From: a virus
Length of the DNA stretch: 21,554 nt
Reading direction: 5' to 3' (one strand)
Virus record (IMG/VR): IMGVR_UViG_3300048006_000084
Location: 1-21,554 of that record
This document shows positions 310-21,264 of the stretch, in pieces. Each line of letters begins with the position of its first letter. Position 1 is the stretch's first letter. The translations under genes were made by a program, and so were the position numbers. The notes under the pieces are model-generated. The model did no database searches. It had not been told where the DNA came from and saw nothing but the letters and a program-made list of their open reading frames with translations.

Positions 310-342
310 GGCCCTGATATGGTATTCAATCCATACAGGGCC
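310..342 (+). promoter_or_regulatory. Leader hairpin, copy A
   Basis: Twelve base pairs form between 310-322 (GGCCCTGATATGG) and 331-342 (CCATACAGGGCC), with one bulged A at 317 and an 8-nt loop TATTCAAT. No T-run follows, so it is not a typical rho-independent terminator. It lies about 40 nt before the ATG of the SprT-like gene. Copies B and C have the same position and architecture, and base pairs covary between A and B. It is probably a structured mRNA leader, perhaps a processing or stability element; the function is inferred. Confidence 0.7.
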
Positions 343-381
343 AGCGGCAGTAATAGAAACAAACTTTGAAAGGTTAATATA

Positions 382-966
382 ATGAATACAACAATAGCAA
401 CAAGAGAAGAATGGTTAAATCAGGCTAAAGACGGTATGATTGAGACACTGTTTAAACAGGCCGGTGTAGAGGATACAGCGCAGAAAACTAAAATACGTGT
501 TACCTGCGCTCCGACATCATACCGTGCCAATTCCAAAATATTGGGATGGTGTTTCGGAGAGGGTTCATCGAAAGATAAAACCCACGAAATTATTATTTCA
601 TCTAACGTAGATGATGCGTCTAGAGCAATGGACATTCTAGCCCATGAAATAACCCATGCGGTCGTAGGTCTGGAAGCGGGACATGGTCCTAAATTTAGAG
701 CCTTAGCGATTAAAATAGGTCTTGAAGGTAAAATGACCGCTACGGTGGCTAGTGAAGAATTTAAAAAAGTAGCGTCTAAAATAATTGAGAAGATAGGCGA
801 ATACCCACACGCAGAATTTAACATTGGTAAAAAGAAACAAACAACACGCATGGTAAAGTTAACCTGTGAAGATTGTGGTTTTATCGCTAGAGCGTCCAGA
901 ACGGCGTTATCAAAAGCAGGCAATCCTACTTGTGGATGCGGTGGTTATATGTATACTGACGACTAA
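382..966 (+). CDS. SprT-like zinc metalloprotease
   Basis: This 194-residue protein has the zinc-protease motif HEITH at residues 88-92 (H88, E89, H92), followed by a third histidine in the GHG at about 101, as in the SprT/Spartan family. The C-terminus carries a zinc-ribbon-like cysteine set (C162, C165, C184, C186), as in other SprT proteins. Cellular Spartan cleaves proteins crosslinked to DNA; phage versions are common but their targets are largely unknown, so a role in clearing host proteins from DNA is inference. The ATG at 382 follows AAAGG with usual spacing and leader hairpin A. A GTTTAAAC site lies inside the gene at 450, and another just past the stop at 973. Confidence 0.82.
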   Translation: MNTTIATREEWLNQAKDGMIETLFKQAGVEDTAQKTKIRVTCAPTSYRANSKILGWCFGEGSSKDKTHEIIISSNVDDASRAMDILAHEITHAVVGLEAGHGPKFRALAIKIGLEGKMTATVASEEFKKVASKIIEKIGEYPHAEFNIGKKKQTTRMVKLTCEDCGFIARASRTALSKAGNPTCGCGGYMYTDD

Positions 967-993
967 TACCGCGTTTAAACAACGCCTCCAATA

Positions 994-1026
994 GGTCCCG
1001 ATATGGTAGCCAATCCATACGGGGCC
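994..1026 (+). promoter_or_regulatory. Leader hairpin, copy B
   Basis: This has the same fold as copy A. Positions 994-1006 (GGTCCCGATATGG) pair with 1015-1026 (CCATACGGGGCC), with the same bulged A (1001) and an 8-nt loop TAGCCAAT. Compared with A, one T-A pair became C-G (999-1021) and one C-G became a T-G wobble (996-1024). A GTTTAAAC site sits 13 nt upstream at 973-980. It lies about 40 nt before the ATG at 1067. Confidence 0.72.
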
Positions 1027-1066
1027 TTAGGCAGTACTAGAAACAATTTTAGAAAGGTTTAGAATA

Positions 1067-1309
1067 ATGGGTATATCTGTAAAAGAACATTTTATAAACG
1101 GTTTTAATTACGCCGTTAATGATGTAGAGGACGGAGAAATTTATGACGTTGAATTAGCTATAAAAGGATTTGAAATTGATCCTGCCGATAGTCCTACGCA
1201 ATCAGGCTATCTCGATGCTTTATTAAAAATAAATAAACGTGGTTTGAAAACAACTAGAGATTTATTAATATCTGGTGAATTAAGAAAGTTAGTATCTAGA
1301 AACAATTAA
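1067..1309 (+). CDS. Hypothetical protein, 80 aa
   Basis: No family is recognised. The protein is soluble and has mixed charge, with an acidic stretch around residues 18-28 (NDVEDGEIYDVE) and a basic C-terminal third. The ATG at 1067 is preceded by the repeated ribosome-binding segment AAAGGTTTAG, shared with neighbouring genes. The last codons (SRNN, stop) are encoded by TAGAAACAATTAA, which matches the non-coding leader in front of this and other genes, so the next gene's leader is partly overprinted on this gene's 3' end. Confidence 0.65.
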   Translation: MGISVKEHFINGFNYAVNDVEDGEIYDVELAIKGFEIDPADSPTQSGYLDALLKINKRGLKTTRDLLISGELRKLVSRNN

Positions 1310-1327
1310 TTAGGAAGGTTTAGAATA

Positions 1328-1609
1328 ATGAAAATAATTTCTATAGAAAAAACTGCCATTGATAATTTTATGAAAACATGGCCCTGCTCAGGTCTACATA
1401 AGATAGACCATATCTTAACTGCTTTTGATGACGAGGGTAATCTAGTAGACATGGAAGCTTTTAATGATGTTTTAGAGCGTGAACAAACGGACTATAACGA
1501 CTATGATGGTTCTGGTGCGATGCCTGAATTGCTTTTAGAGGCCTACGAAAATGCTACGCGCAATGTACAACCTGCTAATATGATTAATACTGGTTATATG
1601 TATAAATAG
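1328..1609 (+). CDS. Hypothetical acidic protein, 93 aa
   Basis: The product is unrecognised. It is acidic, with several aspartate-rich segments (FDDEG; DYNDYDG), and has no predicted membrane span. It begins 18 nt after the previous stop, with the ribosome-binding segment GGAAGGTTTAG in between. It is followed by a GTTTAAAC site and leader hairpin C. It is probably an early host-interaction gene by position only. Confidence 0.62.
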   Translation: MKIISIEKTAIDNFMKTWPCSGLHKIDHILTAFDDEGNLVDMEAFNDVLEREQTDYNDYDGSGAMPELLLEAYENATRNVQPANMINTGYMYK

Positions 1610-1633
1610 CATACCGTTTAAACACCCTCTATA

Positions 1634-1666
1634 GGCTGTATTCTAGTGTGATAACTAGATACGGCC
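1634..1666 (+). promoter_or_regulatory. Leader hairpin, copy C (diverged)
   Basis: Positions 1634-1647 pair with 1654-1666 (13 pairs, one T-G wobble, one bulged T at 1642) around a 6-nt loop GTGATA. The stem sequence differs from copies A and B, but the outer GGC...GCC pairs and the arrangement are kept. GTTTAAAC lies 10 nt upstream (1616-1623), then CCTCTATAGG. The leader sequence CTGTAATAGAAA and AAAGGTT follow before the ATG at 1714. Conservation of shape over sequence suggests an RNA-level role. Confidence 0.6.
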
Positions 1667-1713
1667 TTTAGGGGTGAAATCTGTAATAGAAATTAAATAG
1701 AAAGGTTAAAATA

Positions 1714-2357: not shown

Positions 2358-2390
2358 GGGGAGCGTTTAAACACGTTCCCCATTTTTTTT
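2358..2390 (+). terminator. Rho-independent terminator containing a GTTTAAAC site
   Basis: A nine-pair stem forms between 2358-2366 (GGGGAGCGT) and 2373-2381 (ACGTTCCCC), with one G-T wobble and a 6-nt loop TTAAAC. A run of eight Ts follows at 2383-2390. The stem and loop contain the GTTTAAAC palindrome at 2365-2372. This is the only clear classical terminator I find on the plus strand. Confidence 0.85.
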
Positions 2391-2422: not shown

Positions 2423-2464
2423 TTACTTTGGTTACAGTTAGAAATTAATTAGGAAGGTTAAATT

Positions 2465-2623: not shown

Positions 2624-2779
2624 ATGTGGAAGTATAAAGTAGACCGTAGTGGGTGGAGGCCTAACCCTGCGATAGCACGTAGGATAAAAAAGTTGGATAA
2701 GGTCAACATTGGCTCTCACGAAGGCCGTGTTAAGTTTGGTTATAATTATTTACAATTTGTAAAAAAAGGAGGTGTTTAA
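2624..2779 (+). CDS. Hypothetical basic protein, 51 aa
   Basis: It starts 4 nt after the previous stop, with GGAGGTATTAG as the ribosome-binding site. The product is basic (RSGWRPNPAIARRIKKL at residues 8-24). The stop codon is part of a GTTTAAAC palindrome (GTT TAA AC), and the next ATG follows 2 nt later. The function is unknown. Confidence 0.55.
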   Translation: MWKYKVDRSGWRPNPAIARRIKKLDKVNIGSHEGRVKFGYNYLQFVKKGGV

Positions 2780-2781
2780 AC

Positions 2782-3351: not shown

Positions 3352-3600
3352 GTGAGTCATTTAAATAACGATGAGTTGCAACAAAATTTGTTTGAAGCAT
3401 CTGAGGATGAAAAGTTCCAGTACGTTGAACAACGAAAGTTAAAAATGATTGATGATATGTGGGAGCATCACTTTTATAACCTCCCAGTTATAGATTTAAT
3501 TATCCTTGCAAAACAACAGTTTAAGGACAAACACTGTTTAAACACTGCGGATGAAATTGTAGATAAGTATAATGAAATTTTTCAAAAAGGGGAAAAATAA
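3352..3600 (+). CDS. Hypothetical protein, 82 aa, GTG start
   Basis: The start is GTG at 3352, supported by AGGAG nine bases before it; no ATG lies near. The product is acidic and mainly helical in character, with a hydrophobic patch VIDLIILAKQ near residue 46. A GTTTAAAC site at 3536 encodes part of CLNT. The stop overlaps the next ATG. No family is recognised. Confidence 0.58.
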   Translation: MSHLNNDELQQNLFEASEDEKFQYVEQRKLKMIDDMWEHHFYNLPVIDLIILAKQQFKDKHCLNTADEIVDKYNEIFQKGEK

Positions 3601-3775: not shown

Positions 3776-3804
3776 TTGACACGCTATTTGTTATCCTATA
3801 GGAT
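3776..3804 (+). promoter_or_regulatory. Sigma70-type promoter
   Basis: A perfect -35 (TTGACA, 3776-3781) is followed, after a 17-nt spacer, by TAGGAT (3799-3804, four of six matches to TATAAT). It lies in the largest plus-strand gap without a gene (3756-3896) and would drive the genes from 3897 on. Confidence 0.65.
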
Positions 3805-3805: not shown

Positions 3806-3861
3806 CTTATGTGGTCTGAAATTATACTTTAAGTTTTATTTTTAGTTATTAATTTAGATCA

Positions 3862-3886
3862 CTTAAGATACTTAAGAATACTTAAG
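3862..3886. repeat. Three phased CTTAAG palindromes
   Basis: CTTAAG occurs at 3862, 3871 and 3881, about one helical turn apart, in the pattern ATACTTAAGA. They sit in the leader just before the ATG at 3897 and downstream of the promoter. They could be a cooperative protein-binding array or overlap the translation start region. Confidence 0.6.
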
Positions 3887-3896
3887 AAGGTGTAAA

Positions 3897-4554: not shown

Positions 4555-4761
4555 ATGTATGTAAATTTATATGACTACGCACCCAGAATAGGCTCAGGTT
4601 GGAGAAGAGTTGAGTTAGTTTCTGAGGGTTGGAAGTGGACCAAAATAAAATACCGTCCAATGGGTTTAAACGGCTCCCCTATATTCGAGCGTCCTATACA
4701 CAGCAAGATACTTTCTAAAGTGTGGGAAAAGTTGCCTAAGAAAGAAAGGTTATTCTCATGA
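4555..4761 (+). CDS. Hypothetical basic protein, 68 aa
   Basis: It begins 4 nt after the previous stop, with AAAGG ahead of the start. It is rich in Trp and Lys/Arg (GSGWRRVELVSEGWKWTKIKY region, residues 13-33). A GTTTAAAC site at 4664 encodes GLNG. It overlaps the next gene by 4 nt. Confidence 0.55.
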   Translation: MYVNLYDYAPRIGSGWRRVELVSEGWKWTKIKYRPMGLNGSPIFERPIHSKILSKVWEKLPKKERLFS

Positions 4762-5456: not shown

Positions 5457-5495
5457 ACTTTGGTACTGTTTAAACGCTTTCTTAGGAGATATGTT

Positions 5496-5741
5496 TTGAA
5501 AAGACTTTCATTAATTTTAACCACTGTTTTAATAGCAGGATGTGTTAGTTACGGTAATGACAATCAGGCTTACGAGTGGATAGGGTGTCACATAGTAACG
5601 GACAATCCCAGTAAAAACAATTATGCTTTTAACACTGTAGGTAAGTTAGAGGTAGGTAGTAAGATATATTTTAAAGCTGTAAATAAAGATGGAATAATAG
5701 GTCACATTACTACAGCTAGGCCATGTATGGAAGGGGAATAA
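5496..5741 (+). CDS. Small lipoprotein, 81 aa
   Basis: I choose the TTG at 5496 because AGGAG ends 7 nt upstream, and the resulting N-terminus is a textbook lipoprotein signal: K2-R3, a hydrophobic core and the lipobox IAGC with C16. The frame is open upstream to 5460, but that extension covers the ribosome-binding site. The mature part (about 66 residues) has two more cysteines and no known fold. It would be lipid-anchored in the cell envelope. Small phage lipoproteins often act in superinfection exclusion or as outer spanins; spanins normally sit beside lysis genes, none of which are here. A GTTTAAAC site lies 20 nt before the start. Confidence 0.7.
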   Translation: MKRLSLILTTVLIAGCVSYGNDNQAYEWIGCHIVTDNPSKNNYAFNTVGKLEVGSKIYFKAVNKDGIIGHITTARPCMEGE

Positions 5742-5742
5742 A

Positions 5743-7395
5743 GTGTTACAAAAAGTTTCTAAGGTTACAGGTAAAGGCCCTTGTCCTAAGTGTCGAGAGA
5801 AGGGTAACGATACTAAAGGGGATAACTTAGTTTCTTACGATGATGGGCATAAGTATTGTTATGCCTGTACATATACAGAGTTCTCAGATGGTTCCCCTAA
5901 CACAGAACCTTATGTAGTTAAACCAACGAAGGATTTTGAGATGGTAGGTTTTCACGGAGCGATTAAGGACAGACGTATTTCAGATACGATTGTTAAAAAG
6001 TTCGGAGTTACAGTAGAGAGAAACGAAGTAGACAATACACTATCAAAACATCACTACCCATATTTTGATAAAGATACAGGAAATGCGGTAGGTACTAAGG
6101 TCAGGTCAGTTCGTCAGAAAACCTTTTTAACTACAGGTACTCTGGACAACACTGGTTTATTCGGGCAACAGATATGGCGCGAAGGTGGTAAGTACGTCAC
6201 TATCACAGAAGGCGAGTTAGATGCTTTAGCTGTGGCAGAGATGTTTGACGGTAAATGGCCTTGCGTTTCAATTAAGACGGGATCAGCAGGGGCAGTCAAG
6301 GACATTAAAGCGTCTTTAGAGTGGTTAGAGACCTTTGAGAATGTAGTGATATGCTTTGATATGGATGACGCAGGTAAACAAGCAGTGGACAGTATACTTC
6401 CATTGTTCTCCCACGATAAGGCTAAAGTAGTATCTCTTCCGCTTAAGGACGCAGGGGAGATGCTTAAGGCAGGAAAGGTAAAAGAATTTATTTCCGCATG
6501 GTGGGACGCTAAACCCTATAGACCAGTAGGAGTAGTTTCGTTCGGTGATGAGGAGTGTTGGGATGCGTTTGTTAAACGTGGTACTGAGGAGATTATACCT
6601 CTACCTGATGCTTATGGCTCACTTAATGCCATGATGAATGGTGGTCTAGCGGCCGGAGAAGTAACTGTCATAGGTGCATTGACATCCATAGGTAAGACTA
6701 CAATGGTCTTTAATTTACTTTACGACATGGTACTACAGAACTCTAAAAAGATTGGTGCTGTATTACTGGAATCAGACCTAGGCGAGACTATAGAAAAGAT
6801 AGTTTCCCTACATAGTGGCGAGAATATATCTTTAGTTCCTAATGAGACTAGAGACAATTCAGTGTACCGTGATTTTTACGATGACTTTAAAAGTAAATCT
6901 AATGTGCATATTTTAAAGCACCTAGGTTTTTCGGATGTAGATGCCCTGTTCTCTAAGATGCGGTGGATGGCTGTGGGTGATGACTGTGACGTTATTATCT
7001 TAGACCCTCTCCATGCGGCTGTGAGGTCAAATGAGAACGGGCAGATAGATGAGTTTATGGATAGGTGTCTTAAGTTAGCTAAGGAGACAGGTGTATCTAT
7101 TGTTATTGTGTCACACATGAGGAAGCCTAACGTCAAAGACCCACATGATGTCAACGAGTACGACATGAAGGGGTCGGGATCGATCAATCAGATAGCCTTC
7201 AACACGATCTTACTAAGCCGTGACAAGATGTCTGATGATGAGTACACTAGGAACTCAACTAAAGTACAGCTAGTGAAGTGTCGTAGGACAGGCCGTACTG
7301 GTCATGCTGGTTGGTTGTACTATGAGCAGGACACAGGACGTATGGTGGCAGGTACAGAACCTAAGATAAAGGCGGTAGAAGATCATGAGTTCTAA
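5743..7395 (+). CDS. Primase-helicase, T7 gp4-like
   Basis: The 550-residue length is close to T7 gp4 (566). Visible domains: a zinc finger (CPKC 14-17, CYAC 39-42) for template recognition; a TOPRIM primase core (EGELDA 156-161, DMDD 206-209); and a RecA-type hexameric helicase with Walker A GALTSIGKT (311-319), Walker B VIILD (417-421) and the phosphate-sensor region VSHMRKP (456-462). The C-terminus ends acidic plus Phe (EDHEF), as needed for polymerase docking in T7. It unwinds DNA and lays primers for the lagging strand. The start is GTG, 1 nt after the previous stop, with AAGGGG upstream. Its 3' end overlaps the HNH gene by 11 nt. Confidence 0.93.
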   Translation: MLQKVSKVTGKGPCPKCREKGNDTKGDNLVSYDDGHKYCYACTYTEFSDGSPNTEPYVVKPTKDFEMVGFHGAIKDRRISDTIVKKFGVTVERNEVDNTLSKHHYPYFDKDTGNAVGTKVRSVRQKTFLTTGTLDNTGLFGQQIWREGGKYVTITEGELDALAVAEMFDGKWPCVSIKTGSAGAVKDIKASLEWLETFENVVICFDMDDAGKQAVDSILPLFSHDKAKVVSLPLKDAGEMLKAGKVKEFISAWWDAKPYRPVGVVSFGDEECWDAFVKRGTEEIIPLPDAYGSLNAMMNGGLAAGEVTVIGALTSIGKTTMVFNLLYDMVLQNSKKIGAVLLESDLGETIEKIVSLHSGENISLVPNETRDNSVYRDFYDDFKSKSNVHILKHLGFSDVDALFSKMRWMAVGDDCDVIILDPLHAAVRSNENGQIDEFMDRCLKLAKETGVSIVIVSHMRKPNVKDPHDVNEYDMKGSGSINQIAFNTILLSRDKMSDDEYTRNSTKVQLVKCRRTGRTGHAGWLYYEQDTGRMVAGTEPKIKAVEDHEF

Positions 7396-7804
7396 ATACC
7401 AAATACGACACGATATGTCAGGGCGTTTAAACAGGTCAGTTTATTTACGTAAAAGAAATAACTACTCTTGTGAAGTTTGTCTTGAGAATTACCCTGAAGA
7501 AGTTTTAGAGTTTCATCACCCTGATTCTTCTTTAAAAGAAACACAGTTAAGTAGTCATTCTTTTAGAGGTGTGTTACAGCCGAAGCAGAAAGTTCTTGAC
7601 GAGGCTGATGATTGTATAGTATTATGTAGTAACTGTCATAGACTTGAACATATAGCTTTAAAAAAAGGTGAGACTTTAATCAATGACAAAGAAGCTTATT
7701 CTAGATATAGAAACCACCGCTTTTCCAGTTACAAAGGTTTGGATGATCGGGACAAAGGACCTACAGACGAAGAAGAAGAAGAATTTCCTTGTGGACCAGT
7801 TTAG
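7385..7804 (+). CDS. HNH endonuclease
   Basis: This 139-residue protein has a zinc-bound HNH core: CEVC (29-32), EFHH (42-45) and CSNCHRLEH (81-89), giving paired cysteines C29/C32 and C81/C84 and the H44/H45-N83-H89 series. It should nick or cut DNA. Such genes between replication genes can be free-standing homing nucleases or host-DNA degradation enzymes; which applies here cannot be told. The last 122 bp lie in another frame inside the polymerase gene, so about 40 C-terminal residues (ending in an EEEEE run and PCGPV) are overprinted on the exonuclease domain. A GTTTAAAC site at 7425 encodes RLN. Confidence 0.82.
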   Translation: MSSKYQIRHDMSGRLNRSVYLRKRNNYSCEVCLENYPEEVLEFHHPDSSLKETQLSSHSFRGVLQPKQKVLDEADDCIVLCSNCHRLEHIALKKGETLINDKEAYSRYRNHRFSSYKGLDDRDKGPTDEEEEEFPCGPV

Positions 7805-9410
7805 CGAACTACAGGATTTTATAGATAGATATGATGTCATTATTGGTCATAATATTATTGATTTTGATATTCCTATTCTGGAAAGATTTCTAAAGACATC
7901 GTTTAAACAGCACAAGATTGTAGATACGTTAATTCTTTCCCGTCTGTTTAATCCTCAGTTAGAAGACGGACATTCGTTAAGGGCATGGGGAGAGCGTCTT
8001 AAGTTTCCTAAAGGTGATTATGATGATTGGACTAAGATAACACCTGAGATGATAGAGTATTGTGAGCAGGATTGTGACGTTACACATAAGGTCTACGAGG
8101 TACTTACTGAAAAGCTAGATACCTTTGGTGATACCAGTATTGAGCTAGAACATGAAGTTCAGAATGTAATTACTAAGCAGATACAACACGGGTGGTTATT
8201 AGATCAACGTAAATGTTACGATCTATTAGCTGAACTTAAACAACGAAAGATGGAGATTGAAGATGAAGTACACGAAAGGTTTAAAGCGTTACCTGTTTTT
8301 GTTAAAGAGATCACGCCTAAGTACAACAAAGACGGTAGACTTAGCAACGTTGGTCTTAGGTTTTTCGGTGATAACAGGCCTTGTATTGGGGGTTCTTTTA
8401 GTCGCATAGATTGGCCTGAGTTTAACTTAGGTTCTAGACAACAGATCGGGAGATACTTACAGTTTTTCGGATGGGTCCCTAAGCAACATACTGAGAAGGG
8501 TAACGTAATTGTGGATGAAGCAGTCCTTAGTAAAGTCAAGAATATACCAGAAGCTTCGCTAATAGCTGAGTATTTATTAGTTCAAAAGCGTATGGCACAG
8601 ATAGATTCATGGCTAGAAGGAGTAGAGGAGGACGGTAGAGTTCATGGTTACGTTAATCCTATAGGTGCTGTAACGGGACGTATGACCCACAGCAGTCCTA
8701 ATATGGCTCAGGTTCCGGCTAGTTACTCACCTTATGGTGGTGAATGTAGAAGTTGCTGGATAACACCTAAAGGTTATAAGCTTGTAGGTGTAGATGCTTC
8801 AGGGCTAGAGCTACGTATGTTAGCTCATTACATGAATGATGCAGACTACACCAATGAAGTAATACATGGTGATATACATACAGCTAATATGAAAGCGGCT
8901 GGTCTTACAGACCGCGATCAGGCGAAGACATTTATCTATGCTTTCCTATATGGTGCTGGTGACGTTAAGTGCGGTAGCATCGTAGGCGGTTCTAAGAAGG
9001 AAGGTGCTAGGCTTAAGGAGAAGTTCTTATCAAATACCCCTGCCTTACGACAGCTTAGAGAGAAGGTAGAGCTTAGTTCGCAGAGAGGTTATCTCAAAGG
9101 TATTGACGGTAGGAAATTAATTATACGATCTACACACGCTAGTTTAAACACTCTCTTACAATCTGCTGGTGCAGTTATTATGAAGAAAGCCTTGACATTG
9201 TTAGATCAATATGCGATACTACATAATATAGACTATAAATTTGTAGGTAACATTCACGATGAATTTCAAGCTGAAGTTCGGGAAGACCAAGTAGATAATT
9301 TTGGATGGTTGGCTGTAGAGTGTATTAAGTCAGCAGGTCTAAAGTTTAACTTAAGATGCCCCTTAGATGGTGAATATAAAACAGGCAATAATTGGGCTGA
9401 GACCCACTAG
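7683..9410 (+). CDS. DNA polymerase, family A, T7 gp5-like
   Basis: The 575-residue enzyme has a 3'-5' exonuclease domain: DIET (8-11), HNIIDFD (56-62) and Exo III around YCEQD (126-130). The polymerase domain has motif A VDASGLELR (370-378, Asp371), motif B RDQAKTFIYAFLYG (411-424) and motif C HDE (525-527). It ends in GNNWAETH, like T7 gp5. It is about 130 residues shorter than T7 polymerase (704), and I see no segment clearly matching the thioredoxin-binding loop. The residue equivalent to E. coli Phe762 is Tyr419, the T7 state, which has been linked with virulent life style in marine phages. The start at 7683 is fixed by the DIET motif. Confidence 0.95.
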   Translation: MTKKLILDIETTAFPVTKVWMIGTKDLQTKKKKNFLVDQFSELQDFIDRYDVIIGHNIIDFDIPILERFLKTSFKQHKIVDTLILSRLFNPQLEDGHSLRAWGERLKFPKGDYDDWTKITPEMIEYCEQDCDVTHKVYEVLTEKLDTFGDTSIELEHEVQNVITKQIQHGWLLDQRKCYDLLAELKQRKMEIEDEVHERFKALPVFVKEITPKYNKDGRLSNVGLRFFGDNRPCIGGSFSRIDWPEFNLGSRQQIGRYLQFFGWVPKQHTEKGNVIVDEAVLSKVKNIPEASLIAEYLLVQKRMAQIDSWLEGVEEDGRVHGYVNPIGAVTGRMTHSSPNMAQVPASYSPYGGECRSCWITPKGYKLVGVDASGLELRMLAHYMNDADYTNEVIHGDIHTANMKAAGLTDRDQAKTFIYAFLYGAGDVKCGSIVGGSKKEGARLKEKFLSNTPALRQLREKVELSSQRGYLKGIDGRKLIIRSTHASLNTLLQSAGAVIMKKALTLLDQYAILHNIDYKFVGNIHDEFQAEVREDQVDNFGWLAVECIKSAGLKFNLRCPLDGEYKTGNNWAETH

Positions 9411-9419
9411 GAGATTAAT

Positions 9420-10316
9420 ATGAGTAAAACATTAGACACATTAGTAGAAGACATCTATACGTTGATGAAGAATAAGAACTCAGCTAAAGGTGTTGACCCC
9501 GAAGCAGAGATAGAGAAGTTCGGAGAAGCTATGAAGGACCTTATGAAGAAAGAGTTCCTTCCCTCTACTAAAAGATACGATAGCCGTAATCTTAGGTTAT
9601 CTGCTGTAGGGAAACCTGATCTTCAACAATGGTATTCATCTAATAAATACGTAGGGGAAAAGTTATTACCCCAGACATTGATTAAATTTATGTACGGTCA
9701 TATGATTGAAGAGTTCCTTCTCATGCTTGTTCGTATGACGGGACATAAAGTTACTGATGAACAAAAAGAAGTCTCTGTGGGAGGCGTAAAAGGCCATATG
9801 GACTGTAAAATAGATGGTACTGTGGTTGACGTTAAGTCCACTACTGCTTTTGGAATAAAGAAATTTCAAGACGGAACCTTAGCAAAAGACGATGACTTTG
9901 GTTATGTAGATCAGATCAAAGCATATGCTCATGCAGAAGGTGATCGTAAGTGGGCATGGTTAGCTATGGACAAACAAAGCGGTACTCTAGCGGTACTTGA
10001 ATACGATCTGGATGACACAGAACATCCTATGTATGAACACTACTCAAGTGATATTGAGGAGCGTGTTTCTCATGTAAAAAAGTGCGTAGGGCTGGCAGAC
10101 CGACCTTCTCCATGTTCATATCCAGTGCCAGATGGCAAATCAGGAAATGTAAAACTATCTACTATGTGTGGCTACTGCCAATACAAACTACATTGTTACC
10201 CAGAAGTAAGGCTATTCAAAACTGGATCAGGACCAAAATATTTAACTAACGTAGTTAATGTTCCTAAGAATCGTTGGGGTAGACCTTACCCTGAAGTTAA
10301 CCTTAACCCTGTTTAA
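9420..10316 (+). CDS. PD-(D/E)XK exonuclease (Cas4/RecB-like fold)
   Basis: Nuclease motifs appear in order in this 298-residue protein: GHMIEEF (93-99, Glu97), GHMD (Asp128), VVDVKS (Asp137, Lys139) and QIKAYAH (Gln165-Tyr169). This is the RecB/Cas4-type core. Cysteines C222, C232, C250, C253 and C259 after the core could hold an Fe-S cluster or zinc, but the typical early Cas4 cysteine is not evident. It stands where T7 has the unrelated gp6 exonuclease and probably degrades host DNA or processes replication ends. AGGAGATTAAT precedes the ATG. The stop codon is part of a GTTTAAAC palindrome at 10311. Confidence 0.82.
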   Translation: MSKTLDTLVEDIYTLMKNKNSAKGVDPEAEIEKFGEAMKDLMKKEFLPSTKRYDSRNLRLSAVGKPDLQQWYSSNKYVGEKLLPQTLIKFMYGHMIEEFLLMLVRMTGHKVTDEQKEVSVGGVKGHMDCKIDGTVVDVKSTTAFGIKKFQDGTLAKDDDFGYVDQIKAYAHAEGDRKWAWLAMDKQSGTLAVLEYDLDDTEHPMYEHYSSDIEERVSHVKKCVGLADRPSPCSYPVPDGKSGNVKLSTMCGYCQYKLHCYPEVRLFKTGSGPKYLTNVVNVPKNRWGRPYPEVNLNPV

Positions 10317-10340
10317 ACATACTTACTATAGGAGGTCAAT

Positions 10341-11090: not shown

Positions 11091-11313
11091 TTCTGAAAAA
11101 GAAAACGAAGACGGTATGATGTTTATGGTTCCTGATGTGTTAGTAGCTAGAATGGAACAAGTAAGGCGTTTAAACAGAGACTTAGCTAAAGCTGACGAAG
11201 ATCAAAAGCTATTCTTAAAACAAGCTATACTTTTATTACTAGAAAGCTGTGACCCTAAATTTTCTAAAATACATAGGCCTCAGTATGACAACAACATTAC
11301 CCCGATCAATTAG
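11083..11313 (+). CDS. Hypothetical charged helical protein, 76 aa
   Basis: I prefer the ATG at 11083, preceded by GAAGGG, over an in-frame TTG at 11062. The N-terminus is very acidic (MDDSEKENEDG); the middle (VARMEQVRRLNRDLAKADEDQK) is a likely amphipathic helix. A GTTTAAAC site at 11168 encodes RLN. No family is recognised. Confidence 0.58.
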   Translation: MDDSEKENEDGMMFMVPDVLVARMEQVRRLNRDLAKADEDQKLFLKQAILLLLESCDPKFSKIHRPQYDNNITPIN

Positions 11314-11970: not shown

Positions 11971-13656
11971 ATGACTAATAACTACGGAATGACACTTCCT
12001 ATTTCAGAAGAAATTGATAAGGTTAAATACAGGCAGACGGGAGAAGACTTTTATAGTAAGGTTGTTCGTATTTCTGAATCACTTAAGGACACACCAGATC
12101 ACTTTGAATCCTTTAAAGATGCCCTAAGACACTTAAGGTTCTTACCTGCTGGAAGAGTGCAGAACGCTATGGGTGCGGCTAGACAAACTACAGCCTTTAA
12201 TTGTTTCGTTAGTGGAGCGATAGAGGACAGTATGGATTCAATCATGGGTAGAGCTACAGAAGCCGCTGAGACAATGCGTAGAGGTGGTGGCATAGGTTAT
12301 GACTTCTCAAGGTTACGTCCCAGAGGTAATCGTATCAAGTCATTAGATTCTAGAGCGTCAGGAGCAGTAAGCTTTATGCAGATATATGACGCAGTATGTC
12401 AGACAATAGCCTCTAGCGGTCATAGGAGAGGCGCACAGATGGGTGTCTTACGTATAGACCATCCAGACATAGAACAGTTTATAACCGCTAAGAATGACGG
12501 TACGTCCCTCACAGGGTTTAATATTTCAGTAGGTGTGACTGACGAGTTCATGGAATGTCTTGAGAAAAAAGAACCATTCCCTTTGAGGTTCGATGGTATT
12601 GTACATGAAGAGGTAGACCCTGTAGCCCTATGGGATATGATTATGCGTTCCACATGGGATTGGGCAGAGCCGGGAGTGTTGTTTATAGACACTATTAATA
12701 AAATGAATAACCTTTACTATTGTGAAAGTATAGAAGCAACTAACCCCTGTGGTGAGCAACCTCTGCCACCTTACGGTGCTTGTTTGTTAGGCAGTTTTAA
12801 CTTAACTAAGTATGTACATGATAAAGCGTTTGACTTTGGTTTATTTACTGGAGACATACATACTGTAGTCAGAGCTATGGATAACGTCATAGATAGAACT
12901 ATATACCCTTTACCTGAGCAGGAGAAGGAAGCTAAAGATAAACGTAGGATGGGTTTAGGTGTTACTGGGCTTGCTAATGCCGCTGAGATGTGTGGTATGC
13001 CATATGCGTCAAAGAAGTTTATGAAGTTTACTTCTCAGGTCCTAGAGACTTTAAGAGATTACTCTTATGCGGCTAGTTCTACTTTGGCTCAGGAGAAGGG
13101 GTCATTTCCTCTGTACGAAAAGGATAAATACACAGAGGGAGAGTTCTTTAAGACATTATCACCTTGGGTGCAGGATCAGATCAAAGAGTTTGGTATACGT
13201 AACTCACATCTGACTTCTATAGCACCCACAGGTACAATAAGCTTGACCGCAGATAACGTAAGTTCAGGTATAGAACCACCCTTTAGTTTGTTTTATGATA
13301 GAACTATACAGGAATTTGATGGTCATCAGATACAAAGAGTAGAAGACTATGCGTTTAAACACGGTGTAGAAGGTAGGACTGCTAATGACATTAGTGCTGA
13401 CGAACACTTATCTGTTCTGTCTTTAGTGTCAAAATACATTGACAGTGCTGTATCTAAGACCTGTAATGTAGGCAGTAGTGTTAACTTCGATGAGTTCAAA
13501 GAGTTGTACTTTAATGCTTGGAAACAAGGATGTAAAGGGATAACTACCTTCAGAGCAGACGGTAAAAGATACGGTATCCTTAATGAAGTTAAGGAAGAAC
13601 CTCAAGCAGAAGCTTGTTTTATAGACCCACAGACAGGTCAAAAATCTTGTGAATAA
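11971..13656 (+). CDS. nrdJ: Ribonucleotide reductase, class II (adenosylcobalamin-dependent) type
   Basis: This 561-residue catalytic subunit has the family motifs: NCFVSG (77-82, redox Cys78), the NPCGEQPL active site (258-265, radical-site Cys260 and Glu262) and APTGTIS (418-424, substrate phosphate binding). Cysteines 549 and 560 near the C-terminus would pass electrons to the active site. The absence of an NrdB gene anywhere near it and the short single-chain form point to class II, which uses coenzyme B12, as in many marine podoviruses; class I cannot be fully excluded by eye. It turns ribonucleotides into deoxyribonucleotides for phage DNA synthesis. A GTTTAAAC site lies at 13353. The next gene starts within its last codons. 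Confidence 0.9.
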   Translation: MTNNYGMTLPISEEIDKVKYRQTGEDFYSKVVRISESLKDTPDHFESFKDALRHLRFLPAGRVQNAMGAARQTTAFNCFVSGAIEDSMDSIMGRATEAAETMRRGGGIGYDFSRLRPRGNRIKSLDSRASGAVSFMQIYDAVCQTIASSGHRRGAQMGVLRIDHPDIEQFITAKNDGTSLTGFNISVGVTDEFMECLEKKEPFPLRFDGIVHEEVDPVALWDMIMRSTWDWAEPGVLFIDTINKMNNLYYCESIEATNPCGEQPLPPYGACLLGSFNLTKYVHDKAFDFGLFTGDIHTVVRAMDNVIDRTIYPLPEQEKEAKDKRRMGLGVTGLANAAEMCGMPYASKKFMKFTSQVLETLRDYSYAASSTLAQEKGSFPLYEKDKYTEGEFFKTLSPWVQDQIKEFGIRNSHLTSIAPTGTISLTADNVSSGIEPPFSLFYDRTIQEFDGHQIQRVEDYAFKHGVEGRTANDISADEHLSVLSLVSKYIDSAVSKTCNVGSSVNFDEFKELYFNAWKQGCKGITTFRADGKRYGILNEVKEEPQAEACFIDPQTGQKSCE

Positions 13657-14454: not shown

Positions 14455-16014
14455 TTAACGTACTCCAAATCCACCTCTTGAGAGGTCTAATTGATTAACT
14501 AAGTTTTCATATTCTATCATTTTATCTGGGTCTGTATCAGTTCTTCCTACAGGTTTAGAAGCCCTTCCCGGTGCAAACATACCTGCTTCTACTGCAACTC
14601 TTGAGTAATCCTTTTTAAAAGGAGTATTAGCTACTGCCTGTATTCTACTTAATTGTTCTCTGGTGACTCCTTTAGGGACAGGCGTTGACAAATCAACACC
14701 AGAATATTCTTTTAATTTATTCATTGATTTTTCAGCCGCTATTTGTTTTGGTTTATTTACTTTAGGCACAGGTTTTTTACTAGTAAGTAAGTTTACTTTT
14801 ATAGGGGTTGAAACAGTAAACATCCTGTCACCTTTTGGCATTTTTTGATTAAAAAGGTCATGCTCATCGTTAACAAAACTAGTTAATTTTCCTTTTTTAT
14901 TAATAGAAGTCATGTAATTAACTCCTCCTAAAACGTAAGAATCTGATTTTGTACTTCCAGTGACTACTGCTGGCATCCCTTTTAAAACTTCTTTTGGATT
15001 TTTAACATCAATTTTTGCTTCTTGTAATGCCTCTAAAAACTCTTTATCTGTTTTAAAACTTTTTGACTTACCGTGTTTCCACACACCTTTTTCTTTAACA
15101 CCCCCAAATATTTTCTTTAAATCGTCTAAAGTAGAACCTCCAAATAATCTTCTATTTAACCTAACAGGGCTTTCTAAATCTCCACCTGCCTGTGAAGACG
15201 TTCTTCTTACCGCTAGTTGGTATTTTTTTGTAGAATCGTACCCAATAGCAGGGAGTGTTTTTATTACATTAAAAACTGAATTTAATTCTGCTTCATTCAA
15301 CCCTGTTTTTTTAATTCCTCCTAGAACTGAAGCGTAATCATCAGCAGAAAAGTTAGGGGAAAACCCTACATTATCTACTCCTTCAGTAATTTTGTGAAAT
15401 TTAGAAGGTTGCTTCATCTGTCGTGACATTAAAGTTGATTGGTCAAACTGACCTATAGCTTTTTTAGCGGCTTGTTTGGCTATTCTTCTTCCTTCTTGTG
15501 TAGATTGATCTGCTTTTTTTATAACATTTAGTGCTTGTTTGGCTACTAGATTATCTGTGTAAGAAAGACCCTCACTCCACAAACCTCTACCAGTAGGGGA
15601 ATATCTTGCTTTAAAAAGGTTTTTTGCTCCTTTTGCCGCCCCCACACCTGCCGTTAATTTTTGCCCTAATTTACCACCCTTGCCTGAATAAAAACCATCT
15701 AAAAAATTAGGAGCGTTAGGTAAAGCCCTTGCTATGGTTTTTGTTATTCCAGCAGAAGGAACCCAAGGTAGCAAACCAGCTAATCCTAAACTAGCGTTTG
15801 TCCATGTAGGTTCTTTAGCAAAAGTTACTGCATCTGCTCCTAGACCCACTACATCTCCTAATACTGGAACAGGAGAGGTATATAAAGCGGCTTTATCGTA
15901 CCAAGGCATTTCGTCATACGCTTTGCCAAAGAGACCTGCCATTCTTTTTCTTGTAGCTTCAGCTTGTTTAGCTTCAGCCATCATTCTTCTAATGTTGTCC
16001 GAAGAAGATGCCAT
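14455..16014 (-). CDS. Putative internal virion protein, 519 aa
   Basis: This is the fifth large gene of the late operon. The N-terminus is helical and charged (residues 1-30); residues 45-100 are Gly/Ala-rich and hydrophobic (VPVLGDVVGLGADAVTF, then SLGLAGLLPWVPSAG), as in proteins that insert into membranes during DNA ejection. The rest is Lys-rich with mixed alpha/beta character (PVVTGSTKSDSYVLGG region). No peptidoglycan hydrolase motif is seen. TAATG overlap with the previous gene implies coupling. The assignment is by position and composition. Confidence 0.55.
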   Translation of the reverse strand: MASSSDNIRRMMAEAKQAEATRKRMAGLFGKAYDEMPWYDKAALYTSPVPVLGDVVGLGADAVTFAKEPTWTNASLGLAGLLPWVPSAGITKTIARALPNAPNFLDGFYSGKGGKLGQKLTAGVGAAKGAKNLFKARYSPTGRGLWSEGLSYTDNLVAKQALNVIKKADQSTQEGRRIAKQAAKKAIGQFDQSTLMSRQMKQPSKFHKITEGVDNVGFSPNFSADDYASVLGGIKKTGLNEAELNSVFNVIKTLPAIGYDSTKKYQLAVRRTSSQAGGDLESPVRLNRRLFGGSTLDDLKKIFGGVKEKGVWKHGKSKSFKTDKEFLEALQEAKIDVKNPKEVLKGMPAVVTGSTKSDSYVLGGVNYMTSINKKGKLTSFVNDEHDLFNQKMPKGDRMFTVSTPIKVNLLTSKKPVPKVNKPKQIAAEKSMNKLKEYSGVDLSTPVPKGVTREQLSRIQAVANTPFKKDYSRVAVEAGMFAPGRASKPVGRTDTDPDKMIEYENLVNQLDLSRGGFGVR

Positions 16015-17921
16015 TACTCAATCGTACTCATTTTATCATATCCTTTAAGCATCTGCATTAGGTTCTCATCTGGCATACCTTCAGCTATTGCTTCATCTAA
16101 AAAATCATTAGCTAACATAGCTCCTATTCTTAAAGCTTTCTTCGGAGGAGACTTGTTTATTTGAATTAACTTATTAATTGTTTTAGGATTAGTAGCCGCC
16201 TTAGCTAAAAAGTAAGGAGTTCCTAAAATTGTTATTGCACTAGCACCTGCTACAGCGGTATCTAAAGCACCAGTTAAAAGTCCTCCAGCTAAACCAGCAC
16301 CAGCCGCGTACTCCTTACCACGCAAGAATAATAAGGCTAATCCAGAAGCAGGTTTTTTATTTGCCGTGACCATTAAATTAACTGTTCTTCTGTAACTTTC
16401 AAAATTACGACCTAAAATTACTCTTAATCTTTTAGCTTCTGTAGGATTTTTTAATTGTTTAGCTACTGTTTTAAAAACTCGTAGACTAAAATCAGCATTA
16501 GCTATGTCAGGCATAGTCTTTGTAAGATACCCTTGTGCAATAGCATCTTTAGCTTCCTTAGCTGTTTTAAACATCATACCTTTAGCAACGTCAGGTGTAA
16601 TTAATTTATAAGCTTCGTCAATAGATTTAAAAGCCTTTTGTACATTTTGTACTTTTCCGGGTCGAGCAAACATAGCTCCCAAAGAAACGTATGATTCTTG
16701 TTTTGCTGATTTAACAAACGTATCGTTTATTTTTGGAAATAAAGAATTTATAACACCACTATAGTCTGACTGTAACTTTCTGTACTGTGTACCAGCATCC
16801 ACAGCTTTTTGTGACATTTTACCCATGTTGTCCATTTGTTGAGAAATAACACCTTGGACTTCTTTTTTTAAATTGACTAACTGAAGTTCAGTTACTGCTT
16901 TAGTGCTGTCCTTAGAAGCTTCTTCTATTAAACCGTTTAAACGCTTTTCAAACTGTATTAAATAACGTCCAGAAGCTACTGTATTTCCCGTTAATCTCCC
17001 TTTTAAATCTGAAATTATACTCATTGTTTCTTTAGAAAGTTCTGAATCCCCTAACTCGTCTGAGTTCTTTTTAACAAAGTTATCAATAGAATCAGACAAA
17101 ACTGATAATTTAAACTTTCCACCTGCAACAAGGTTACCTATTTTATCTAATGACTCTCCGTAAGAATTATTTAAAGCTTTTCTCCCTGCTTGCCAAGCCT
17201 GTGATACACCCTGCCCTACTAAATCATCAGATAAACCTGTTTGATTACCAGAAACTAATGCCATTCTTTCTTGAACAAGTTCTCTAATTTGTTTACTTTG
17301 TCCATCAAAAACATTCTTAGAAAGAATACCAGTTCTACCTATGAGTTCTTTAGCTATATCCCATTTTCCTCCAAGACCTGCTTGAAAAGGAGTTAAAGAT
17401 AAACCTCTTTCAGCTAATATTTCTTGGGATTCAATAGCGTCATCAGTCATCCCTGCTCTTTTAGCCTCTTCTGCCCTTCTTGCTAATTCTGTTGCTATGT
17501 CTTCAACAGGAGTACCTTTCTTAAAAGCGGCTTTAGCCCATTCAAATGCAGGTCTGGCTATATATCTTCCTAATCCAAAAGTAGTAAGATCAATACCTAA
17601 AGAAATACCAGCTTCGGTAAGGGCTTTAGTAAAGTTAATGTCACGATCCATCATTACATCAGACGCAATAGAACCTCCTCCTGACCCTAAAGCACCGCCA
17701 ATAATCCCACCAGCTATCATTCCCGGTGGACCACCTTTTATTCCTATAACTGTTCCAGCAATAGACCCCCCTATTCCACCCGGAGTAGCCATGTTATTTT
17801 TTAGCCAATCTAATGCAGTATTTTTATCTGGAGGCATATTAACTAACGCATCAGACCTCCAAGGTTCTTGTCCTCCTTGAGTAACAGGAGCAGTAACTAT
17901 TGCATCATCTTGCCAACCCAT
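16014..17921 (-). CDS. Putative internal virion/ejection protein, 635 aa
   Basis: The N-terminus carries a short repeated pattern, W-x-x-D-A-(I/L)-V (WQDDAIV at 3-9 and WRSDALV at 21-27), seen at the start of many podovirus inner proteins. A glycine-rich hydrophobic stretch follows (48-88, GGIGG and GGIIGGALG). The middle is long and helical, and a second hydrophobic Ala/Gly region (about 530-580) lies near the C-terminus. This resembles T7-like core proteins that form a channel through the envelope. No lytic transglycosylase motif is visible. One GTTTAAAC site lies at 16935. It overlaps both neighbours by 1 nt. Confidence 0.6.
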   Translation of the reverse strand: MGWQDDAIVTAPVTQGGQEPWRSDALVNMPPDKNTALDWLKNNMATPGGIGGSIAGTVIGIKGGPPGMIAGGIIGGALGSGGGSIASDVMMDRDINFTKALTEAGISLGIDLTTFGLGRYIARPAFEWAKAAFKKGTPVEDIATELARRAEEAKRAGMTDDAIESQEILAERGLSLTPFQAGLGGKWDIAKELIGRTGILSKNVFDGQSKQIRELVQERMALVSGNQTGLSDDLVGQGVSQAWQAGRKALNNSYGESLDKIGNLVAGGKFKLSVLSDSIDNFVKKNSDELGDSELSKETMSIISDLKGRLTGNTVASGRYLIQFEKRLNGLIEEASKDSTKAVTELQLVNLKKEVQGVISQQMDNMGKMSQKAVDAGTQYRKLQSDYSGVINSLFPKINDTFVKSAKQESYVSLGAMFARPGKVQNVQKAFKSIDEAYKLITPDVAKGMMFKTAKEAKDAIAQGYLTKTMPDIANADFSLRVFKTVAKQLKNPTEAKRLRVILGRNFESYRRTVNLMVTANKKPASGLALLFLRGKEYAAGAGLAGGLLTGALDTAVAGASAITILGTPYFLAKAATNPKTINKLIQINKSPPKKALRIGAMLANDFLDEAIAEGMPDENLMQMLKGYDKMSTIE

Positions 17922-19240
17922 TATTTTTTCTCCCTTGCTTTACCGCTTGGGTCTGCATAAAAACTACCACGGGGTAAAGAGTTGTACCATTCGTTAAAAT
18001 TTTTACCAGAAGGTAACTGTAAAGGAGAAGTTCTACTATTAGGAGTTCCTACTCCTTTTTTACTTAATGAAACATTAAAATCACTTAAATTTTTCTTAGC
18101 ATTTTTTTCTTCCGACCACCAATCTCCTATAGCAACAGTGTTGTCTATTTTATCTAAAGCAGATTCTAATAATCGTATATTTACTTTTTTAGATTTAACC
18201 ATACCAGCCATTTTATTAACTAAAAATTTTAAATCTGCGTCTGTAGGCCTTGCTCCTAATAAATCTTTTAAAACAGATAAAATTAAATTTCCCGTTCTAG
18301 AATTAAAGTCACCAGTGTCTGCTGGAAGAACTCCAAAAAATTCTTTTACATCAGCTTCAACACTAGCTAAACCACCCGTCTTAACTCTTTTTGATAATGC
18401 TAAAGCTGTACTTACATTTTCCCTCGATCTTCTAGCTTTTACACCAGCGGCTACGTATTTATTACGAGTTTCAAACTGAGTTTCATTTTTCTTTTTTAAT
18501 AAAGCCTCTTCAACTGCAAGTTTTTGTTTAAGTTTTGCTTCTTCTTTATTTAAGTCTGATTTAAACCCAGCTTTTTCTAATGCTCTTTTTAATTTTACAT
18601 CTCCTGTTTGCCCTACATTATCATCAATAACTTGTATTTCAGCACCAGTGCCTACAGGAACTTTTGGAGCGTTTGCGTTAAGAGGGGCGTAAATAGTTTT
18701 GTTTACGCCACCTACAGATTCCATTCGTGTAAAATACTTATTACCGTTTCTATCTTGAATTAACTTAGTTTTACTAAGAGAACGCTTATCAGTTGATGCT
18801 TTACCTTTAGCAATCTCTTTTCTTGCCATCATTTCAGCCATAGCTCTAAACTCTTTGGCTTCGTCTTGATACCCTCTTGACATAAGTAAAGACCAGCCCT
18901 GTTGCATTTCCTGCTCATCTATTACATCATCATCTGTCATATAACTATCAAGAGTACGTAAAATCTCATTCTTGTCTTTTTCTCTTTTGCTTGCTCTGAC
19001 CATACGAGGGTCTTGAGGTATTTCCATACCCATCATACCTGCACCTGCTCCAAGCATCCTGTCTAGCCCCTGTAGGCCCTGCTCACGGTATCTTGCCGCA
19101 TTAGCCGCTAATGGTCCACCACCTGCTTTTGTTTGGTCTAGGAAGGCTTGACGCACTCTTGCTTGGTTCTCCTGTTCCATGAGACTTCTTATGTCCCCCG
19201 GTGAAGCTCCACCAAATAATCCTGCAAATTTACTAGCCAT
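17921..19240 (-). CDS. Putative internal virion protein, 439 aa
   Basis: The N-terminus (residues 1-80) is Ala/Gly-rich with Met-rich turns (MLGAGAGMMGM); the middle is a long charged helical region (about 205-265, many Lys and Glu, possible coiled coil). No enzyme motif is recognised. AAGGAGTGATTTATA precedes its ATG on the minus strand. Its place in the late block and its size suggest a core or scaffold role. Confidence 0.55.
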   Translation of the reverse strand: MASKFAGLFGGASPGDIRSLMEQENQARVRQAFLDQTKAGGGPLAANAARYREQGLQGLDRMLGAGAGMMGMEIPQDPRMVRASKREKDKNEILRTLDSYMTDDDVIDEQEMQQGWSLLMSRGYQDEAKEFRAMAEMMARKEIAKGKASTDKRSLSKTKLIQDRNGNKYFTRMESVGGVNKTIYAPLNANAPKVPVGTGAEIQVIDDNVGQTGDVKLKRALEKAGFKSDLNKEEAKLKQKLAVEEALLKKKNETQFETRNKYVAAGVKARRSRENVSTALALSKRVKTGGLASVEADVKEFFGVLPADTGDFNSRTGNLILSVLKDLLGARPTDADLKFLVNKMAGMVKSKKVNIRLLESALDKIDNTVAIGDWWSEEKNAKKNLSDFNVSLSKKGVGTPNSRTSPLQLPSGKNFNEWYNSLPRGSFYADPSGKAREKK

Positions 19241-19261
19241 TATAAATCACTCCTTGTATTA

Positions 19262-20458: not shown

Positions 20459-21264
20459 TATGTTCTCAATCCTTGAAGATTAAGAGTTACACCTTGATTT
20501 TTTACAGGAGGTTTAAACAGTCCCCCTGCTCTTGTGAGTAAGTCTCCCATGCTTGAACCACTGGCTCCTAATGTAGCCGCAAGTTGTTGTTGACCGGAAC
20601 TACGTGACGCTAAACCTTGAGCGGCTAAGTTACCTATACTTCCTCCAATTCCTCTACCAATATTAGCCTGTTGTATAGGTACGTTAAGAAGACCCGTAGC
20701 AGTTCCAATGTCGGCACTTTCACGACCTAAGAGTGCAGAAATTAAAGACTGAGCCTGTGAAAAACCTTGGTTACGTCTTTGAGCTTGTCCCTTAAGAATA
20801 CCTTCCTCTAAAGCAGACATTTGATCTCTACCGCCTGTGGAACCTAAGCGTCCCTGAGCAAGCAATCGTGTCTCAAGGTTTGTCCTTAAGTCATCTTCCT
20901 GTTCTGCATAATAAGGTTGCATTTGCTCATAAAAAAGATTACCTGCGGCAAATGGATCACCAGAATACTGAGCTAATTGATCTCCCCAAAGTCCACTTCT
21001 GCTTAAGGCTCCTTGGTAAATACTTTGGAGTTCAGGAGAAAGATTAAGCAGTGCGGTTTTACTGTCTGGGTCAAACTCTGCTGTACCACCTACACTACCC
21101 ACACCATAAGGCGTACCAGCCTCTATTACAGCATCAGCATTTTGATTAAGAACTGCCGCTTGTTCTCTAGCCGCCTGAATATTTGCATCAGCGTTTGCCC
21201 TAGAACCTAAGTAGGATAAGCCTCCACCCAGTAAACCAGCCCAACCTCCTAAACTTTCTAACAT
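20458..21264 (-). CDS. Putative DNA-ejection/internal virion protein, 268 aa (T7 gp14/P22 gp7-like in character)
   Basis: It begins with a Gly-rich hydrophobic segment (LGGWAGLLGGGLSYLGS) followed by an Ala-rich helix (NADANIQAAREQAAVL). The rest is Ala/Gln/Gly-rich with amphipathic helices (GLASRSSGQQQLAATLG). This layout is typical of the small ejection proteins of podoviruses that enter the outer membrane. AAAAGGAGAAAAAGAT precedes the ATG. One GTTTAAAC site lies at 20511. Confidence 0.6.
   Translation of the reverse strand: MLESLGGWAGLLGGGLSYLGSRANADANIQAAREQAAVLNQNADAVIEAGTPYGVGSVGGTAEFDPDSKTALLNLSPELQSIYQGALSRSGLWGDQLAQYSGDPFAAGNLFYEQMQPYYAEQEDDLRTNLETRLLAQGRLGSTGGRDQMSALEEGILKGQAQRRNQGFSQAQSLISALLGRESADIGTATGLLNVPIQQANIGRGIGGSIGNLAAQGLASRSSGQQQLAATLGASGSSMGDLLTRAGGLFKPPVKNQGVTLNLQGLRT

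Follow-up and report, generated by a model that had tools for sequence, protein, structure and literature searches.

Conserved RNA hairpins between early genes of a marine phage, and a separate dispersed DNA site that accompanies a SprT-like protein

In phage T7, intercistronic RNase III sites are hairpins that lie between early genes and lack a U-tract. A different arrangement is found in cluster K mycobacteriophages, in which SAS repeats are present at start codons and about half of them have an upstream inverted repeat, forming an ESAS (PMC3203893). In Adephagia, an ESAS precedes the SprT gene 75 and another precedes gene 76 (PMC11373665). The locus described here, from a marine phage, shares features with both systems. 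It lies in a 21.5-kb virus record (the window, meaning the whole stretch of DNA that was analysed). As in T7, hairpins without a U-tract lie between early genes, but the stems are shorter in most copies. As in cluster K, a start-codon leader is repeated, and an inverted repeat stands just upstream of a subset of the copies (three of five in the window). The ESAS positions of Adephagia are the same as those of hairpins A and B (Table 1). The parallel to cluster K is striking, but membership fails. The 13-bp SAS of cluster K (GGGATAGGAGCCC) was not found at the start codons of the window, where the leaders read TAGAAA...AAAGGTT or AAGGTT. Furthermore, a cluster K ESAS has conserved half-sites with -35 and -10 promoter hexamers, whereas in the window the stem letters vary and the pairing is kept. 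The cluster K SprT protein (Pixie gp78) belongs to another subfamily that lacks the KKQxTR motif described below, and its 17-kb region contains neither GTTTAAAC nor GTTTACAC.

These two words are short DNA sites for which other systems offer the closest comparison. CapP and CapH form a metallopeptidase-repressor pair. PprI/IrrE and DdrO form another, in which PprI senses ssDNA and cleaves the repressor (PMC10904395). In these pairs, as in the phages studied here, an HEXXH metalloprotease is linked to a dispersed DNA operator; here, however, the occurrence of the site follows the zinc-ribbon tail of the SprT-like protein itself, and a repressor apart from it was not recognised. Like the SPRTN/SprT DNA-protein crosslink proteases, the phage protein has a SprT protease part followed by a zinc-binding part, and it has a weak fold match to SPRTN. 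To our knowledge, no sequence-specific DNA recognition is known in the SPRTN/SprT family. Cluster A mycobacteriophages, in turn, carry stoperators and immunity repressors (PMC9283540, PMC6550527). Stoperators resemble GTTTAAAC and GTTTACAC in being many copies of one short DNA site throughout the genome, some of them at promoters. A stoperator is asymmetric and has one orientation, whereas GTTTAAAC/GTTTACAC is an 8-10 bp near-palindrome without strict orientation in the phage Henoccus. Cluster A phages have a known repressor family, in place of which the site-bearing phages appear to have the SprT-like protein. The best explanation of the whole locus, to which we assign a probability of about 0.55, is that two independent elements overlap in it, namely RNA hairpins at gene boundaries and SprT-linked GTTTAAAC sites in the DNA.

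The DNA polymerase encoded in the window is ~51-52% identical to those of the pelagiphages HTVC103P, HTVC104P, and HTVC115P; no DNA similarity of the window to deposited phages was found. The + strand carries small early genes followed by genes for a primase/helicase, the DNA polymerase, a Cas4-like nuclease, and a ribonucleotide reductase. The - strand carries large genes without clear family matches. Four large proteins (398-635 aa) are encoded there at 14455-20458. Three of the four have no PHROG match, and the fourth (16014-17921) is weakly matched in PHROG; Pfam searches with three of the four returned no match.

Table 1. Positions of the SprT-like gene, hairpins, leader copies, and GTTTAAAC sites in the window
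Feature	Position	Strand	Sequence or basis
SprT-like protein, 194 aa	382..966	+	HEITH active-site motif, KKKQTTRM motif, C-terminal zinc ribbon; phrog_6361; Pfam SprT-like
Hairpin A, upstream of SprT-like gene	310..342	+	GGCCCTG A TATGG TATTCAAT CCATA CAGGGCC
Hairpin B, upstream of ORF 1067-1309	994..1026	+	GGTCCCG A TATGG TAGCCAAT CCATA CGGGGCC
Hairpin C	1634..1666	+	GGCTGTA T TCTAG TGTGATAA CTAGA TACGGCC
Leader copy 1, with hairpin	354..375	+	TAGAAA...AAAGGTT
Leader copy 2, with hairpin	1038..1059	+	TAGAAA...AAAGGTT
Leader copy 3, without hairpin	1297..1320	+	TAGAAA...AAAGGTT
Leader copy 4, with hairpin	1687..1707	+	TAGAAA...AAAGGTT
Leader copy 5, without hairpin	2439..2461	+	TAGAAA...AAAGGTT
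GTTTAAAC site, inside SprT-like gene	450..457	.	word count
GTTTAAAC site, before hairpin B, conserved in L011	973..980	.	word count
GTTTAAAC site, before hairpin C, conserved in L011	1616..1623	.	word count
GTTTAAAC site, in arm and loop of terminator-like hairpin 2358-2381	2365..2372	.	word count
GTTTAAAC site, between Shine-Dalgarno and ATG	2774..2781	.	word count
GTTTAAAC site	3536..3543	.	word count
GTTTAAAC site	4664..4671	.	word count
GTTTAAAC site	5468..5475	.	word count
GTTTAAAC site	7425..7432	.	word count
GTTTAAAC site	7901..7908	.	word count
GTTTAAAC site	9142..9149	.	word count
GTTTAAAC site	10311..10318	.	word count
GTTTAAAC site	11168..11175	.	word count
GTTTAAAC site	13353..13360	.	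word count
GTTTAAAC site	16935..16942	.	word count
GTTTAAAC site	20511..20518	.	word count

Each of the hairpins A, B, and C is 33 nt long: one bulged base separates a 7-bp lower stem from a 5-bp upper stem, which is capped by an 8-nt loop. One further pair can close in hairpin C, which together with its outer arms (~1623-1676) reaches ~22 bp, with bulges. A scan of the whole window for this geometry found it on the + strand at 310, 994, and 1634 only and nowhere on the - strand; dinucleotide shuffles gave an expectation of 0.23 per strand, with a maximum of 2 among 60 shuffles. The folding z-scores of the leader-plus-hairpin stretches were -3.7, -3.7, and -6.1 for A, B, and C, respectively. 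The hairpins lie 21-30 nt downstream of a stop codon (21-27 nt in the window, and 27 nt past that of the SprT-like gene for B) and about 39-47 nt upstream of a start codon, and the spacing is similar in homologues. Intrinsic termination was ruled out because no U-tract directly follows the stem of A, B, or C on the 3' side, and a terminator scan omitted all three. An Rfam search gave 0 matches at the gathering score. A first-pass annotation had placed hairpins at these positions, describing a 12-pair stem with a bulged A and an 8-nt loop in A and B, the same shape in other sequence in C, and no T-run that would make them ordinary terminators; all of this was borne out. The changes from T-A to C-G and from C-G to T-G that it listed between A and B are present as well. 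However, A and B are recent duplicates that also form a 73-nt direct repeat, 81% identical, so the comparison of A with B alone is weak evidence for covariation.

The same annotation had coupled the hairpins to the TAGAAA...AAAGGTT leader. The leader does follow all three hairpins, but it occurs five times in the window and two of the copies have no hairpin. A scan of the sequence collection with the leader word GGCAGTANTAGAAACAA returned 41 stretches, of which only those of one contig (L011, whose SprT part is 93% identical to that of the window) were genuine. L011 was also the only contig with relatives of the ORF at 1328-1609. A promoter within the TAGAAA leader (9-10 of 12 matches) was rejected, as its -10 element would overlap the start codon.

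Stronger evidence for covariation came from an alignment of ten distinct hairpin sequences, namely the three window copies and seven homologues, several of which are closely related. The homologues lie in L011 (364-390 and 736-768) and in the contigs L132, L133, L134, L023 (the same as L136), and L137. In these last five contigs the SprT-like gene is 57-61% identical to that of the window, and the hairpin lies directly behind it, which is the position of hairpin B. The lower 7-bp stem was paired in all ten sequences, with changes on both sides at four of the seven pairs, and one pair was U-G in seven of the ten. The covariation score was 0.411, compared to 0.227 +/- 0.034 for shuffled alignments (0/500), and slid partners scored at most 0.214. 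The upper stem is type-specific, and about half of its cells pair across types. Loops differ among the A/B, C, D, and B' types, with no conserved loop. The bulge is present in the A, B, and C types, where its identity varies, and absent in the D type. No constant promoter hexamers were found in the alignment. The G-U pairs and the changing stem letters point to an RNA stem rather than to a protein-binding dyad in the DNA. The hairpin is a selected, evolutionarily conserved RNA stem-loop. The proposal of a structured mRNA leader, for which missing covariation in homologues had been named as the refuting result, is thus supported. The covariance-model search suggested along with it found no hairpin copy outside this clade.

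What does the hairpin do? Most relatives have a different small gene in the slot that follows the SprT-like gene and its hairpin (966-1067 in the window), while the hairpin and leader stay. The retention of the hairpin when the downstream gene is replaced, together with the unlike loops, argues for a role of structure alone rather than for control of particular genes. In combination with the constrained distances, it favors a generic intercistronic boundary for processing or protection. In this model, the hairpin would be a structure-only element in the gap between small early genes, ahead of a repeated Shine-Dalgarno leader. It would divide the preceding message from the following cassette, whose 5' end it would protect, whichever gene fills the slot. 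We hold this generic role in processing or stability tentatively, at somewhat less than an even chance within the best explanation.

A more specific mechanism is T7-type RNase III processing, in which cleavage at the hairpins would free separate mature messages. The intercistronic location within the early gene block and the preservation of structure but not of the loop are consistent with it, as are the ~22 bp, with bulges, that hairpin C reaches with its outer arms. RNase III sites span about two helix turns. The A, B, and D types measured 12-17 bp in the comparison of stem lengths; their stems of 12-16 bp are short and lack convincing long outer helices. RNase III processing is therefore plausible for hairpin C and less so for A, B, and D, and it appears unlikely as the explanation for all of them. 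Another possibility is that a phage or host RNA-binding protein binds the hairpins and controls translation of the following gene. The bulge seen in types A, B, and C would suit such a protein, as would the fixed distance of ~40 nt to the start codon, but the identity of loop and bulge varies by type, the D type has no bulge, and the hairpin stays while the downstream gene changes, making this control improbable. Least likely is that the hairpin-leader units are mainly recombination boundaries for gene swapping: ORF 1067-1309 is missing from L011, the gap falling exactly between two leader copies, and the slot behind the SprT-like gene varies in most relatives, but recombination needs sequence identity rather than base pairing, and the pair-preserving double changes point to an RNA function.

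The second element is the DNA site. The first-pass annotation had noted GTTTAAAC before hairpins B and C and joined it to them. The word is present there, but it is a separate, genome-wide site tied to the SprT-like gene; in other words, the structured, non-terminating RNA leader of that annotation stands and the joining of GTTTAAAC to it does not. As a part of the hairpin the word was rejected because the A and D copies have no adjoining site and the word is spread over the genome. No other 8-mer of the window is as over-represented (16 copies vs ~1 expected). One copy falls in a terminator-like hairpin with a T-run, detected by the terminator scan and conserved in L011 at ~1635-1660. The excess is equally extreme in near relatives and in contigs related via the SprT-like gene only, including GC-rich ones. 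In 72 distant SprT-positive contigs taken together, GTTTAAAC occurred 432 times vs 12.1 expected, with at least two copies in 68 contigs, and nine other words showed no comparable excess there. The word is palindromic, and its flanks are Y..R in 390 of the 432 sites, which extends the site to YGTTTAAACR. In 40 control contigs picked by an unrelated DNA word, 12 copies were found vs 9.6 expected. Three or more sites were present in 58 of the 72 SprT-positive contigs and in none of the 40 controls (Fisher p 8e-19, a value that overstates independence, many contigs being related). The environmental contig set is also biased to the motif, KKKQTTR being one of the two query peptides, whereas the named isolates were found by tblastn without this bias. 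For these reasons, the argument rests on the isolate lineages and on joint losses of site and motif.

Among the isolates, the observed and expected numbers of GTTTAAAC were 8 vs 0.02 in R5C and 9 vs 0.01 in Pan1 (both GC-rich), 8 vs 0.96 in Alexa, 4 vs 0.9 in ep3, 4 vs 0.05 in Mica, and 2 vs 0.06 in Persinger. Relatives of the window's DNA polymerase provide a further comparison. A clear match to phrog_6361 was found in three of these records only (E ~1e-41 to 1e-42), and they carry 11-13 sites; SprT-negative relatives (20-54 kb, outside the window's clade) carry 0-3. HTVC104P has a marginal phrog_6361 match (2.9e-5, 40 positions) and GTTTAAAC at chance level. Two contigs with 9-11 sites (L017 and L021) gave no SprT match, but both are partial pieces of the window's own clade and stop short of the SprT region. 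Thus, GTTTAAAC sites occur almost only in phages with one kind of SprT-like protein. A word of the host lineage is an unlikely explanation, since the phages infect very different hosts and the word is at chance level in the pelagiphages HTVC104P and HTVC115P. Literature searches for GTTTAAAC, GTTTACAC, and their extended forms found no report of such a phage site among the papers searched. The densest contig seen (L145) has 20 copies in 10.1 kb vs 0.38 expected.

Actinophages carry GTTTACAC instead of GTTTAAAC. There are 27 copies in Powerpuff vs 0.13 expected, 36 in Henoccus vs 0.05 (in both orientations), 18 in VroomVroom, and 9 in Percival, with an expectation of 0.13 or less. In Powerpuff and VroomVroom, several sites follow a TAGACT element, and several in IAmGroot are placed between TTGCGC and hexamers resembling TATACACT. 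Sites at promoter-like sequences are in positions expected for the binding of a transcription regulator. A site beside the SprT-like gene was not found as a general feature among the 72 contigs (six of them, no excess over their own site density), which leaves general autoregulation of this gene unsupported. Single cases of an adjoining site are Powerpuff, VroomVroom, Alexa, ep3, Persinger, Mica, L002, and L004. In the Microbacterium phage IAmGroot (L230 17187-19264), four similar promoter-like sequences have GTGTAAAC between the TTGCGC and TATACACT-like hexamers.

The SprT domain of the window's protein matched PF10263 at 28.1 bits (cut-off 25.6), and its HEXXH motif reads HEITH. An AlphaFold model (pLDDT 89) has a SprT-like arrangement with a C-terminal ribbon. 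A fold search of the PDB with this model gave weak matches only (best E 0.012); the first five include the SPRTN protease domain, CapP, and, further down, a PprI-ssDNA complex. A profile search of PDB sequences with the protein found nothing. In an alignment of SprT-like proteins, those of site-bearing phages have KKQ[TSG]TR[ML] just before the zinc ribbon (PKQ in two), and the site-less Eden and FP1 have lost KKQxTR. Four further phages were fetched as a test: Epa5, Quenya, and Coltrane have neither KKQxTR nor a site, and IAmGroot has KKQxTR and 9 sites vs 0.012 expected. In a tree of the proteins, Eden, Quenya, and Coltrane stand beside IAmGroot in the actinophage group, with support of 94/92, just under the tool's mark, at the fork joining IAmGroot, and FP1 and Epa5 stand elsewhere. 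Motif and sites were therefore lost together at least twice. HEXXH is intact in every SprT-like protein of the tree, including the site-less ones. The correspondence has exceptions: L006 and L007, which lack the motif, carry 2-3 sites vs 0.3 expected; L201 combines 12 sites with a variant of the motif; and in L143 and L177 the motif is accompanied by a single site in ~7 kb.

The link between protein and site points to an unrecognised gene-control system in which the SprT-like protein is probably a site-specific regulator. YGTTTAAACR would be its cognate double-stranded DNA site, scattered over the genome, and the protein would bind through KKQxTR and the zinc-ribbon tail and thereby control transcription. 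We infer direct binding and regulation from the co-occurrence and co-loss of sites and motif in the sequences. A separate DNA-binding partner may recognise the sites instead. More broadly, SprT-like proteins with KKQxTR and a zinc ribbon may form a new class of DNA-binding regulators, with YGTTTAAACR or GTTTACAC as operators, that includes the repressor of clusters AZ and EH, for example that of Powerpuff; we rate this just short of an even chance. The cluster AZ phage Powerpuff forms stable, homoimmune lysogens without an identifiable repressor, and a SprT-like gene is common to clusters AZ and EH (PMC8758107). The words 'motif' and 'repeat' are absent from the text of that paper. With moderate confidence, the SprT-like protein is a candidate repressor of temperate AZ/EH phages.

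Alternatively, the SprT-like protein could be a protease that removes another repressor seated on GTTTAAAC, as PprI acts on DdrO and CapP on CapH. Retention of HEXXH in all the proteins fits this role, and the weak structure matches to the SPRTN protease domain, CapP, and the PprI-ssDNA complex would agree with it, PprI being a protein that senses ssDNA and cleaves a repressor (PMC10904395). However, the sites follow KKQxTR and not the protease motif, which site-less proteins retain, and, judged by annotation, no single DNA-binding gene adjoins SprT throughout the annotated records. We consider such a protease doubtful, and direct binding is favored over cleavage of a partner because the sites track the protein's tail. 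It is also unlikely, and a little more so, that GTTTAAAC marks DNA for replication, segregation, or recombination rather than transcription. The sites run through coding DNA in proportion to coding density (372 of 432 lie inside ORFs) and are present in phages without an annotated integrase, as a mark of DNA metabolism would allow, but several of those in Powerpuff, VroomVroom, and IAmGroot lie at promoter-like sequences.

As an addition to the phage leader elements of unassigned function, the hairpin is modest and well supported. More important is the connection of the SprT-like protein with its site, which provides a widespread phage gene family, so far carrying only the annotations 'SprT-like protease' or 'transcription elongation protein', with a function that can be tested. 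It also supplies a concrete candidate for the repressor whose presence in cluster AZ phages had been inferred (PMC8758107). Microbacterium phages of the same host with and without motif and sites constitute a natural experiment.

Other features of the window were noted in passing. In a different frame, an HNH-endonuclease-like ORF (7385-7804) overlaps the predicted start of the DNA polymerase ORF (7683) by ~120 nt. A TTGACA-17-TAGGAT sequence resembling a promoter is located at 3776. At 3861-3890, directly upstream of the ORF at 3897, CTTAAG occurs three times with a spacing of 10 nt (ACTTAAGATACTTAAGAATACTTAAGAAGG), and CTTAAG-like repeats are also present in L023 at ~5573-5605.
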